The position numbers and the translations under genes were made by a program. 64,000 nt of DNA, from positions 124,001 through 188,000 of the forward strand of contig CATQHF010000005.1 of the NCBI GenBank assembly GCA_958295865.1, in the 5' to 3' direction. The notes beneath the pieces were generated by a model that was not told the origin of the DNA, searched no databases, and saw nothing but the letters and a program-made list of their open reading frames with translations. The DNA is from an uncultured Dehalococcoidia bacterium (GTDB taxonomy: Bacteria; Chloroflexota; Dehalococcoidia; Lucifugimonadales; JADFKI01). Positions 27,759 to 35,900 of the stretch are shown here, in pieces; the stretch's first letter is position 1, and every line of letters begins with the position of its first letter.

Positions 27759-28811
27759 TCAATCTTCAGAGCCTAGCCACACCAGCCTATTCTCTAGCGG
27801 AACGTCCGCGCGAATTGACTGCGGCAGGCGGTCATAAGTATCCAGCAACTTATCCACCAACTCATCAGGCCCCCAAAGGCGTATCTCAAAGAACCGTCGT
27901 CTGTTTTCTCTACGGACGGGTTGTGTGAAGCCGGTCGAACTAACTAGCAAGCCGTAGTCAGCATTGAAACCATGCACATTTCCTTGCAAGCGATTGTAGT
28001 CCGCTATCCCCACAAGTGAGCCGCCCGACTTCACCTGCACACACAACTTTGGACTGTCGAACCCCAATGCGCCGCTTCCCGCAAGTATGTCCACGCCGCC
28101 ATCAGGTCCCGCCTCTGTCTTCAATGTGGCATAACCCTCCGCCTTGAGGATTTCTTCCACCAAAGTTTCCAAGTCATGTCCGTGATACCTCTGACGGATA
28201 CGCCCGATAATGCGATCTCTGATGTCCTGTTCTAGGTCCAACACAAGAACGTCGTCATACTCATCGGGGGGTTCATTAGTTGTAATCGGCTCAGGCGCAC
28301 CAACCACCTTTTCATTTTGGTCATTACCCAAGTAAGCGTCCACAATTCCGTCGATACGCTCATCCGCCCTGCTGCGCCCAATGCGAAACACTGTTTGGTT
28401 TGCGTTAAATGAGCGCAACAAGTCCAAGTCAAAATTAGTACGTGGCACATCCTGAACCTGCCATTCGACCTTGCGAGTGTGCGGCAATGGCGCTTTGTAG
28501 TCGCTTGGCTCGTACACATAATCCCCTACTATCTTGCCAACGGCTATTACCTTAGGTTGTCTGCGCGGCAACACTATCATTTCGCCTATTTTGAATTCGT
28601 GGGCGAAATGCCAAAGCTGAGAGGCGGATGCTGCGGCGCGATTTATGCTATCGGGAAATTGCGTATCTTGAATGTGATTACGCAACGCTTCATAGTCGGT
28701 AAAATCGGTGACGCTCTGATAGAGATCAAAACCTATGCTATACACGCCGTTGTTGAGGGCGAATTCTTCGTTTTCGCCCATCCTGCCAGCCCTAATCACC
28801 CAGACAGCCAT
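27759..28811 (-). CDS. Mrr-like restriction endonuclease with N-terminal modulatory domain
   Basis: 350 residues. The N-terminal 120 or so (VWVIRAGRMGENEEFALNNG, LWHFAHEFKIGEMIVLPRRQ, IAVGKIVGDYVYEP) form the EVE/PUA-like domain often found fused to such nucleases. The C-terminal Mrr_cat domain (about 205-320) carries AGPDGGVDILAG and CVQVKSGG, giving the Asp...Gln-x-Lys catalytic set of the PD-(D/E)XK fold. Mrr-type enzymes usually cut modified DNA (type IV). No methyltransferase is adjacent. GC content (about 50 %) is below the surroundings, consistent with acquired defence. Confidence 0.85.
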   Translation of the reverse strand: MAVWVIRAGRMGENEEFALNNGVYSIGFDLYQSVTDFTDYEALRNHIQDTQFPDSINRAAASASQLWHFAHEFKIGEMIVLPRRQPKVIAVGKIVGDYVYEPSDYKAPLPHTRKVEWQVQDVPRTNFDLDLLRSFNANQTVFRIGRSRADERIDGIVDAYLGNDQNEKVVGAPEPITTNEPPDEYDDVLVLDLEQDIRDRIIGRIRQRYHGHDLETLVEEILKAEGYATLKTEAGPDGGVDILAGSGALGFDSPKLCVQVKSGGSLVGIADYNRLQGNVHGFNADYGLLVSSTGFTQPVRRENRRRFFEIRLWGPDELVDKLLDTYDRLPQSIRADVPLENRLVWLGSED

Positions 28812-33488: not shown

Positions 33489-33523
33489 ATCAAAAATTGG
33501 CATTCCCTCTGCCCAGATAGACC

Positions 33524-33552
33524 TTGCATAACAGAATGTTTGTCTGTATTAT
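33524..33552 (+). promoter_or_regulatory. Promoter of the AT-rich kinase/NUDIX island
   Basis: TTGCAT (33524-33529), 17-base spacer, TATTAT (33547-33552). AGGAGG at 33569-33574 precedes the ATG at 33583. Confidence 0.6.
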
Positions 33553-33582
33553 TGCAGTAGAATCGATTAGGAGGTTTCTTAT

Positions 33583-34314
33583 ATGTCCATATCTTCAGAC
33601 AATCTCGATACAGACAATTTACGCTTACGCGCTGAGGATATCCTAAATGCCTTGGAAGAAAACGAGCCAGAGAGACCTTATTTTATTGAGTTCTCTGGAA
33701 CTCCCAAAAGTGGGAAGAGCACATGTATTGACATAGTTTCCCACTTCTTCCGGCGAGTTGGCTTCAGAGTATTGGCTCCCACTGAGGGTGCTTCCCGGCG
33801 TACACCTCGTTTCCTCAGAGACGATTTACTTGCCTTTAATACATGGTCTGCATCGTATGCTCTGACTCATGTATTAGAAGGACTAACTAGTCCTGAAAGG
33901 TATCATATTGCCATCCTTGATAGAGGTTTGTTTGATGCTCTAGCGTGGTTTGAACTACTTGAACAACGCAGAGACGTAACAGCAGACGACTGCAAGCGTG
34001 TTCAAGAATTTCTGATGATCGAGAAGTGGCGAAGCGTTATTGACTGTGTGTTTTTGTTTCAAACTGACCCTGCCACATCACTCAAGCGGGAAAATGCTGA
34101 TAAACTCATCGATGAACCTGGAAGGGCAATGAACCAGGATTTCCTGATGAGTCTAAATAATGCATACGACACCGTTCGGGAGAAATATGCCGATCAATTT
34201 CAGAATTTCGAGTTAATTGACACTGGCGATACCCAAGTCAGTACTCCAAAGTCAACTGCCTTTGAAGTAACTCAAAAGACTATTGATCTGATGTCAGGGA
34301 ATTCTTCAGAATGA
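33583..34314 (+). CDS. P-loop kinase, thymidylate/deoxynucleoside kinase-like
   Basis: 243 residues. The Walker A motif FSGTPKSGKST is at about 38-48, the region ILDRGLFDALAW (about 123) resembles the DRx motif of deoxynucleoside and thymidylate kinases, and a possible lid lies near LKRENADKLIDEPGRAM (about 167). It is probably a nucleotide or nucleoside kinase, but the substrate is unknown and some dTMP-kinase residues are absent. GC content near 43 % contrasts with about 60 % in the flanking gcv genes. First of three co-directional genes; overlaps the next by 4 bases. Confidence 0.7.
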   Translation: MSISSDNLDTDNLRLRAEDILNALEENEPERPYFIEFSGTPKSGKSTCIDIVSHFFRRVGFRVLAPTEGASRRTPRFLRDDLLAFNTWSASYALTHVLEGLTSPERYHIAILDRGLFDALAWFELLEQRRDVTADDCKRVQEFLMIEKWRSVIDCVFLFQTDPATSLKRENADKLIDEPGRAMNQDFLMSLNNAYDTVREKYADQFQNFELIDTGDTQVSTPKSTAFEVTQKTIDLMSGNSSE

Positions 34315-34973
34315 ACGAAAACCAGACACGGGAAATACTTGTCGCTCCAAGAAGTCTATTTCAGGACTACCGCTGGTTTGTCCCTTGGGATGTCATTGAA
34401 CCTCAGTTGCGCGATATTTCAAGCAATGCGACTTGGGTGGAGCGAGAAATTGCTGAACAATCGTACAGTGATGTACAAATAATTCCTTGCGGAATAATCA
34501 AAAACTCATCTGGGGAATACTGTGTTCAGCGAAGAGTGAAATCTACTAGACCTGACCTCAATAGCAAGATAACGCTTACTTTTGGAGGACATATAGACCG
34601 GGTTGAGCAGCCACAAGGCACAGACTTCCTACGTTTACTTCTATTGACTTTATCCCGAGAATTAGAAGAAGAATTAGGAGTTCAGGAAATCAACAACTTT
34701 GAGAATGTCGGTGTGGTAATTGACCCGTCATCTTTGTTGGCATCTAGGCATGTAGCGTTTGTCTTTCAGGCATTGGTTGATTCTGAAGTCAGCCCATTGG
34801 CGCGTGAGGAATTTTCTGTTCACTCAAAATACAGCGCCAGCTTTCTCACAGCTGAAAAAATCACTGGGCTACTTTCTCTGCTTGATCCTTGGTCAAGAAT
34901 TGTATTTGAAGAACGTCTGAATCCCCGCTCTAAGCCTCAGGGTAGGCAAATGAGCCTAATACAAAACATCTAA
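34311..34973 (+). CDS. NUDIX-fold protein
   Basis: 220 residues. A Nudix-like box can be traced: GGHIDRVEQ, then LSRELEEELGV (around 121-131), matching the RExxEExG core; the spacing from the Gly is longer than the classic 23-residue box, so activity is uncertain. A preceding strand pair (DVQIIPCGIIKNSSGEYCVQ) fits the fold. Nudix enzymes hydrolyse nucleoside diphosphates linked to another group. Start codon overlaps the kinase stop (ATGA), so the pair is translationally coupled and likely works on related nucleotides. AT-rich like its neighbour. Confidence 0.65.
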   Translation: MNENQTREILVAPRSLFQDYRWFVPWDVIEPQLRDISSNATWVEREIAEQSYSDVQIIPCGIIKNSSGEYCVQRRVKSTRPDLNSKITLTFGGHIDRVEQPQGTDFLRLLLLTLSRELEEELGVQEINNFENVGVVIDPSSLLASRHVAFVFQALVDSEVSPLAREEFSVHSKYSASFLTAEKITGLLSLLDPWSRIVFEERLNPRSKPQGRQMSLIQNI

Positions 34974-34988
34974 ATTATGGAGATACCG

Positions 34989-35363
34989 ATGGGCAAATGG
35001 GCTTGGTTTCCGCTAATTGGATCAATTTTAGGCGCATTGGTTTTCATTTTTGGCTCTATGTCCGCAGAGGGTGCGCCTCAAGAAGCAGTTGCAGCGGCAG
35101 CAGGCGTAGCTCTTGCTATAATTCCTTATGTCTTCGCAAGGGCAATGTCAGAAATAAACGCTTCCAAGCAGGGGAACTTGCGTAGAATCGAACTCGCCCG
35201 CCTTATTGCAATAGAAATGTCTGACACACAACATAAAAAGGGAGAACAGGAAGCAGAATCGCACCAGATACGAGAGCGTCAGAGCGAAGTAGAAACGCAG
35301 GGCGTGAGCGATGTCAGGATGGCCGGTCCAAACAGATCGAGAGCGGATACTACATCGGTTTAG
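34989..35363 (+). CDS. Small membrane protein, unknown function
   Basis: 124 residues from the ATG at 34989 (GGAG 6 bases upstream). Two hydrophobic helices, about 5-22 (AWFPLIGSILGALVFIFGS) and 33-55 (AVAAAAGVALAIIPYVFA), then a polar, charged cytoplasmic-looking tail of about 65 residues rich in Glu, Gln and Arg. I do not recognise a family. It follows the NUDIX gene by 15 bases and shares its low GC, so it is probably part of the same acquired unit. Confidence 0.6.
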   Translation: MGKWAWFPLIGSILGALVFIFGSMSAEGAPQEAVAAAAGVALAIIPYVFARAMSEINASKQGNLRRIELARLIAIEMSDTQHKKGEQEAESHQIRERQSEVETQGVSDVRMAGPNRSRADTTSV

Positions 35364-35441
35364 GGAACGGAAATAGGCTTCTCAAAATACCAAAGAGTAG
35401 CAAGTGAATCAAGAATACATAAACTTACAGGGAGCAATAGT

Positions 35442-35900
35442 ATGGTTGATGTAGGACAGTCCGCGCCGGACTTTACGCTGCCGGCGCAAGATCTGAAGAA
35501 TGTATCGTTGAGCGACTACAAGGGCGAAAAGACGGTCGTTCTGTCGTTTCACATATTTTCGTTCACAGGCGGTTGAACGGATCAGGTCTCCTCGTTCCGC
35601 AGCTACAACGCTGACTTCGAGGAGAAGAATGCCCAGGTTCTGGGCATTAGCTGCGACGCCCGCCCCGCGCAAACCGCATACTCAACATCGCTGGGCAATC
35701 TGCCCTACCCGCTGCTGTCGGACTTTCATCCGCACGGCGCGATGACGCAGGCTTATGGCATATTCAACGATGAGCGCGGCGCGCCCAATCGCGCGGTGTT
35801 CATAGTCGATAAGGAGGGCGTCATCCGCTTCAAGCGCGTCTATGACAGCGCGCGCGCCCTCGATCCCAAGGACATTCTTGCGGAAATCGACAAGATTTAG
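35442..35900 (+). CDS. AhpE-like peroxiredoxin, probable selenoprotein (Sec at codon 45, TGA 35574-35576)
   Basis: 152 residues if the in-frame TGA is read as selenocysteine. The N-terminal part is VDVGQSAPDFTLPAQD, then VVLSFHIFSFTGG-[TGA]-TDQVSSFRS; after it the frame continues without a break through LSDFHPHGAMTQAYGIFND, RGAPNRAVFIVDKEGVIRF to a TAG at 35898. The TGA falls exactly where thioredoxin-fold peroxiredoxins have the peroxidatic cysteine (FxxTxxC), and the downstream blocks are those of the AhpE family. A hairpin starts just after the TGA. AGGGAG lies 7 bases before the ATG. It would reduce peroxides through a selenenic acid intermediate, and it probably shares a transcript with trmI (12-base gap). 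A nonsense mutation or sequencing error is the alternative. No selABC genes are in the window. Confidence 0.82.
35578..35599 (+). promoter_or_regulatory. Putative bacterial SECIS hairpin
   Basis: Begins one base after the TGA. Outer stem CGGA/TCCG (35578-35581 with 35596-35599), inner stem AGG/CCT (35584-35586 with 35590-35592) and loop TCT, with an internal mismatch. Longer pairing GTTG/CAAC (35572-35575 with 35606-35609) may extend it. Placement immediately 3' of the UGA, inside the reading frame, fits bacterial SECIS elements; I have not folded it by computer. Confidence 0.45.

Follow-up and report, generated by a model that had tools for sequence, protein, structure and literature searches.

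The window, i.e., the whole 64,000-nucleotide stretch of DNA analysed here (G000:C5:124001-188000, part of the 3.4-Mb genome G000 assembled in six contigs), contains between gcvPB and a peroxiredoxin gene a low-GC segment that encodes a kinase, a NUDIX hydrolase, and a small membrane protein, designated below as K, N, and M. The features of this region are as follows:

33489-35441, strand not assigned: inserted low-GC segment of about 1.95 kb, the gcvPB–peroxiredoxin gene interval
33524-33552, plus strand: weak possible promoter TTGCAT-17 nt-TATTAT, read from the sequence and absent from the output of a consensus scan
33583-34314, plus strand: K, P-loop kinase of 243 aa with the deoxynucleoside/thymidylate kinase fold; AGGAGG at 33569-33574
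34311-34973, plus strand: N, NUDIX hydrolase of 220 aa, TM1382/YmaB type, PHROG 8902
34989-35363, plus strand: M, small protein with two hydrophobic segments; the open reading frame opens at 34977

Positions 33490-35440, with a GC content of 0.441, are the lowest-GC stretch of the window. The mean for windows of 1950 bases is 0.597 (sd 0.033), the lowest value outside the segment is 0.526, and none of the 58,148 windows outside it has a GC content of 0.47 or less. The GC3 values of K, N, and M (0.39-0.42) differ similarly from those of gcvPA, gcvPB, and the methyltransferase gene (0.78-0.81). An earlier, sequence-only reading of this DNA described an AT-rich island of three genes, in which the kinase and NUDIX genes are coupled by ATGA and a two-helix membrane protein follows. 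The composition and the gene content bear out this description, the coordinates place the ATGA overlap at 34311-34314, and M has two hydrophobic segments (residues 7-25 and 32-50) and a charged C-terminal tail, its likely start being the ATG at 34989, shortly 3' of GGAG. The good promoter attributed to the trio proved to be weak: the site upstream of K agrees with the consensus at 8 of 12 positions (hand count), and the two promoter-like sites found by scanning the region (3.5 expected) both lie elsewhere.

The gcvPB gene was found in 36 of 40 relatives searched (G000 counted), and the window was compared with 14 of the other gcvPB loci. The alignment with relatives stops at about 33497 and resumes at about 35441. 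In the congeners G804 and G807 both flanks align, and gcvPB is separated from the peroxiredoxin gene by a gap of ~70-85 bp; the available piece of G806 ends ~1 kb past gcvPB, short of any peroxiredoxin gene. K is absent from all four congeners (G804-G807) and from five further relatives (0 of 9 in total). The alignment of the flanks and the absence of K in relatives therefore indicate that 33490-35440 is an insertion: this lineage acquired ~1.95 kb of DNA, including the M gene, at this position. The segment has no terminal repeats that would be a signature of transposition, and no motif shared by the regions upstream or downstream of nine loci with K and N was found beyond what shuffled sequences gave. 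In congener G805, ~490 bp of unlike sequence occupies the same position (L067:2951-3442), and hence the gcvPB–peroxiredoxin site may acquire DNA repeatedly.

Two neighbouring genes deserve a separate mention. The peroxiredoxin gene (35442-35900, plus strand), which appears as broken in the list of open reading frames, has an in-frame TGA (35574-35576) at the active-site position (SFTGG-TGA-TDQV). Its product is a probable selenoprotein: the TGA is kept in nine of ten relatives and replaced by a Cys codon in the tenth, and tRNA-Sec scores above the Rfam cut-off in G000 and in all four relatives tested. Just ahead of the gcv operon lies a gene of an Mrr-type restriction endonuclease (27759-28811, minus strand; PADLOC PDC-S02, E 3.9e-110; GC3 0.56).

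Comparison of the predicted structure of K (AlphaFold, pLDDT 87) with solved structures resulted in whole-domain matches to members of the deoxynucleoside/thymidylate kinase fold. The highest score was that of AbmG (8j5f; Z 18.0 across 204 residues), nearly tied with those of Drosophila dNK (1zm7; Z 17.1), dCK, and bacterial TMPK (~16). Considering these proteins together with the M. mycoides dAK (2jaq) and human dCK, the fold common with K is indicated by Z of 16-18 at an rmsd of about 3, and the P-loop is common as well. Deoxynucleoside kinases have an ERS/DRS motif at the place where the DRG motif of K stands. Across the 14 loci at which K was found, 20 of its residues are invariant (E36, G39, P41-K42, G44-K45, E68, A70, F85-N86, W88, D113-R114-G115, F117-D118, P163, R169-E170, and M183), those of the P-loop, E68, and D113-R114-G115 among them. 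K differs from the kinases named above by its low identity to them (13-18%) and by its constantly adjoining NUDIX partner. The weak match to the dTMP kinase model TIGR00041 and the common fold could suggest that K is simply the housekeeping dTMP kinase of this organism with a chance neighbour, which the sequence-only reading named as an outcome that would defeat its proposal. However, the match reaches 18.8 bits, far below the cut-off (83.25), a canonical dTMP kinase gene is located elsewhere (G000:C1:821646-822293), all K-bearing genomes tested encode a dTMP kinase besides K, and the congeners lack K. This explanation is thus refuted.

The assignment of N as a NUDIX hydrolase is supported by its match to Pfam PF00293 (27.5 bits, gathering score 21.1), and the YmaB/TM1382 type by a profile match to PHROG 8902 (E 2.1e-17) and a whole-chain fold match of its predicted structure (pLDDT 91) to TM1382 (3e57; Z 20.8, 22% identity), followed by E. 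coli 2fkb and IPP isomerases. The predicted folds of K and N thereby support the identity proposed earlier, namely a nucleotide kinase with a nucleotide hydrolase. The canonical NUDIX box is Gx5Ex7REUxEExGU. N shares with TM1382 the GGH...RExxEExG layout, in which RExxEE(xG) is intact, while the first Gx5E part with its conserved Glu is missing and the segment from GG to RExxEExG is longer than the canonical one (hand count). The spacing had been noticed already as atypical; since all 17 aligned relatives have the same form, it is a trait of the family. Thirteen residues of N, RExxEE included, are invariant among the 14 loci minus L036, where N crosses an assembly gap and was omitted from alignments. 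Matches to N occur in 62 of 301 genomes of the host phylum. In contrast to its solo YmaB-type relatives from Chloroflexota, which are 21-35% identical to it, N is paired with K, or fused to it at other loci, and K was not found within 1.5 kb of any of the 27 solo loci checked. Besides N, PHROG 8902 matches two scanned paired relatives, the fused protein of locus L064, and the NUDIX protein of phage locus L097. The link of N to YmaB itself comes from a relative in phage SP-15, annotated as "similar to BSU17400". BSU17400 is ymaB in the strain table of PMC10860749, and according to that paper YmaB lacks a clear functional description.

The phage relatives of the NUDIX family offer a view of its possible role. 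In the phage operon L097:3813-7182, the gene order is NrdB, ThyX, NUDIX, and P-loop kinase, with the NUDIX gene starting where that of ThyX ends, and this operon likely offers a functional clue to a PHROG that has no known function. The kinase encoded there was considered as kin of K and rejected, no kinship being detectable beyond the P-loop. The L097 NUDIX protein matched 58 phage records, for eight of which the genomic context was viewed. Near the NUDIX gene there are genes of dUTPase, thioredoxin, and guanylate kinase in phage GR1, of thymidylate synthase and DHFR in phage hairong, and of a 5'-nucleotidase, beside primase, in phage SP-15; in the five other records no gene of deoxynucleotide metabolism is named nearby. 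These contexts point to deoxynucleotides, for the NUDIX family rather than for N itself. They are in line, as is the nucleoside/nucleotide kinase fold of K, with the explanation that K and N are metabolic cargo: a phage-derived pair for the salvage or clean-up of deoxynucleotides that gives a growth benefit, spreads by horizontal transfer, and has no immune role, with M as a passenger. The lack of kinship between K and the L097 kinase speaks against it, and so do further results given below; we regard it as a credible explanation, yet one with distinctly less than an even chance.

Altogether, 14 loci of K were found, including that of the window: ten from a narrow-pattern scan of 84,980 species (one genome each), L064 from a scan of viral contigs, and L127 and L128 from genome searches. 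In all 14, K comes first and N directly after it, as neighbouring genes in 11 and as a single fused protein in three (L043, L064, and L127). The distance from the K stop to the N start ranges from -20 to +9 nt in the ten split pairs measured. The sequence-only reading held that its proposal would fail if the three genes never co-occurred elsewhere. This turned out to be true of the trio, as M is not beside K and N at any other locus found and is therefore no constant third member, and untrue of the K-N pair. At these 14 loci K never stands alone, and the two enzymes are always paired in one order, coupled or fused, as could also be expected of an addiction-like pair, in which K would make a harmful nucleotide and N remove it, so that loss of N kills. 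A toxin and its antidote fused in one chain would be unusual, however, and no PADLOC model matches, which makes such a pair improbable.

K is rare, occurring in 3 of 400 genomes of the host phylum, 8 of 197 of the host order, and, in the phyla to which the L043 and L042 genomes belong, 1 of 398 and 2 of 294, respectively. The order search returned 13 genomes, from which the eight scoring 299-396 bits were counted and five that scored at most 21.2 bits, on P-loop fragments, were omitted; one of ten matches was kept in the search of the L043 phylum and two of eight in that of the L042 phylum. The loci are mostly labelled in databases as Dehalococcoidia, Chloroflexota, or SAR202, and the carriers of fusions include a Clostridiales genome and a prophage-like contig (L064). 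At all 12 loci measured (L127 and L128 are outside this count), the K-N cassette has a GC content 9-21 points lower than the DNA on either side. Its neighbouring genes vary between loci, and most pairs are located amid ordinary chromosomal genes. Because of the low GC content of the cassette, its changing flanks, its patchy spread, and its absence from congeners, we consider K-N a mobile pair. Our results show a conserved, horizontally moving module of two enzymes present at many chromosomal sites. Such rarity and patchiness, even within a genus, in genomes that, as far as tested, have their own dTMP kinase count against the metabolic explanation.

Possibly, the pair is a prophage accessory that serves the phage, e.g., by rebuilding nucleotides destroyed by host defences. 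The fusion of L064 lies amid open reading frames that we read as encoding integrase, terminase, and portal-like proteins, and at L039 a translation reading as terminase-like is encoded ~0.9 kb upstream. Against this stand the chromosomal surroundings of most loci and the lack of any match to K in 50,697 phage records, and we consider a service to the phage very unlikely. Searches of phage and plasmid collections by tblastn with K, N, M, and two fusion proteins likewise returned nothing for K, N, and M, the single weak NUDIX match being to a Paenibacillus plasmid, and the viral scans returned only L064 and L097.

M is similar to PHROG 12304 (E 1e-8). Besides the window's own copy, its search in 201 genomes gave one weak match of 43 residues. 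To count membrane partners, we applied a simple hydropathy rule (small open reading frames with at least two hydrophobic segments) to the surroundings of the 14 loci. Such frames made up 9 of 264 called ones; four are in K-N operons (M, L043:8774-9415, L064:5622-6314, and L127:7806-8270), while elsewhere there are 5 among 260. As this count was made after the loci had been seen, it should be treated as a lead. All three fusion loci encode a membrane protein in a tight operon, which argues against metabolic cargo: a faintly SLATT-like protein with two transmembrane segments (L127), another protein of the 2TM type, and one with four hydrophobic segments. Among the split loci, 9 of 11 are two genes alone, with no small membrane protein beside the pair, as the metabolic explanation would have it; the other two are L128, with a single-segment open reading frame, and the window, with M. 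The L127 partner resembles the SLATT/DUF4231 effectors of nucleotide-signal systems in that it aligns over the whole SLATT_1 model, but its score is below the cut-off (E 0.02, 15.4 vs. 26.3 bits), as is that against DUF4231 (E 0.0045, 17.8 vs. 24.7 bits); its match to PADLOC RTasSLATT has an E of 0.0021. No SLATT model is among the weak matches of M, which is a short protein.

In PADLOC 2.0.0, no family with an E of 1 or less matched K, N, or M. A search for the neighbourhood in defence islands had been suggested as a check of the sequence-only reading. In our comparison, the surroundings of K-N loci contained fewer PADLOC families than those of control dTMP kinase genes (14 vs. 66, in 125 open reading frames each). 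Many of the control matches look to us like ordinary helicases. The K-N set comprised 125 of 160 listed frames (14 of the window and 21 others were omitted) and the control set 125 of 156. Defence genes are thus not enriched, which agrees with the metabolic explanation. At L043, a small island (L043:6452-9894) comprises an operon in which a 2TM protein, with a faint match to inactive HKD, and a dCMP deaminase (PADLOC dCTPase, E 3.7e-26) precede the K-N fusion; upstream of this operon, a resolvase and a HEPN protein are encoded. The deaminase next to the fusion resembles the AvcD/DcdV dCTP deaminase defence, a nucleotide-based conflict system. Unlike AvcD/DcdV, K has no PADLOC match, a NUDIX protein is added, and the other pairs have no directly adjoining deaminase; the inserted segment of the window encodes none, and an AvcD-type system is not indicated. 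At L037, open reading frames that we assign as type III-A CRISPR Csm5 and Csm4 (L037:2877-5229) lie ~2.7 kb from the pair. The folds of K and N are already known; for K, or for the combination, there is no specific model in Pfam, NCBIfam, PADLOC, or PHROGs. No description of the pair was found in the literature searched, which included PMC9503650 and PMC10860749 and took in few subscription papers.

We tentatively favour, at a little below even chance, the interpretation that K-N is a mobile nucleotide-processing module that serves its carriers defensively, in conflicts with phages or other elements; such a role seems somewhat likelier than a metabolic one. The anti-phage role is plausible given the mobility, the prophage carriage, and the membrane partners of all fusions; the constant pairing, the three fusions themselves, the patchiness, and the L043 island are further points in its support. 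The points against it are the lack of PADLOC matches and enrichment, the nine split loci with no membrane partner, the metabolic context of some phage relatives, and the SLATT match below the cut-off. The folds and contexts suggest that K would phosphorylate a (deoxy)nucleoside or a nucleoside monophosphate, and that N would hydrolyse a product linked to a nucleoside diphosphate. The two enzymes would therefore work on a single nucleotide pool, either one after the other or in the roles of writer and eraser. Least certainly, infection might shift the balance of kinase and hydrolase, and the altered nucleotide might then starve phage replication or open the membrane protein encoded next door, for which M is the candidate effector in the window and the SLATT-like, 2TM, and four-segment proteins are candidates at the fusion loci. 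It is rather unlikely that the module represents a so far undescribed class of nucleotide-signal anti-phage systems, in which a kinase as writer and a NUDIX protein as eraser of the same nucleotide, encoded separately or fused, would control exchangeable small membrane effectors of the SLATT-like, 2TM, or multi-TM kind.

The strict pairing and repeated fusion of K and N, together with their movement among distant bacteria and a prophage-like contig, point to one common substrate nucleotide. If the module defends its hosts, it would represent a principle of signal making beyond cyclases and NADases. Should its role be metabolic, this would help to assign a function to a widespread family of NUDIX proteins (PHROG 8902, YmaB-like).
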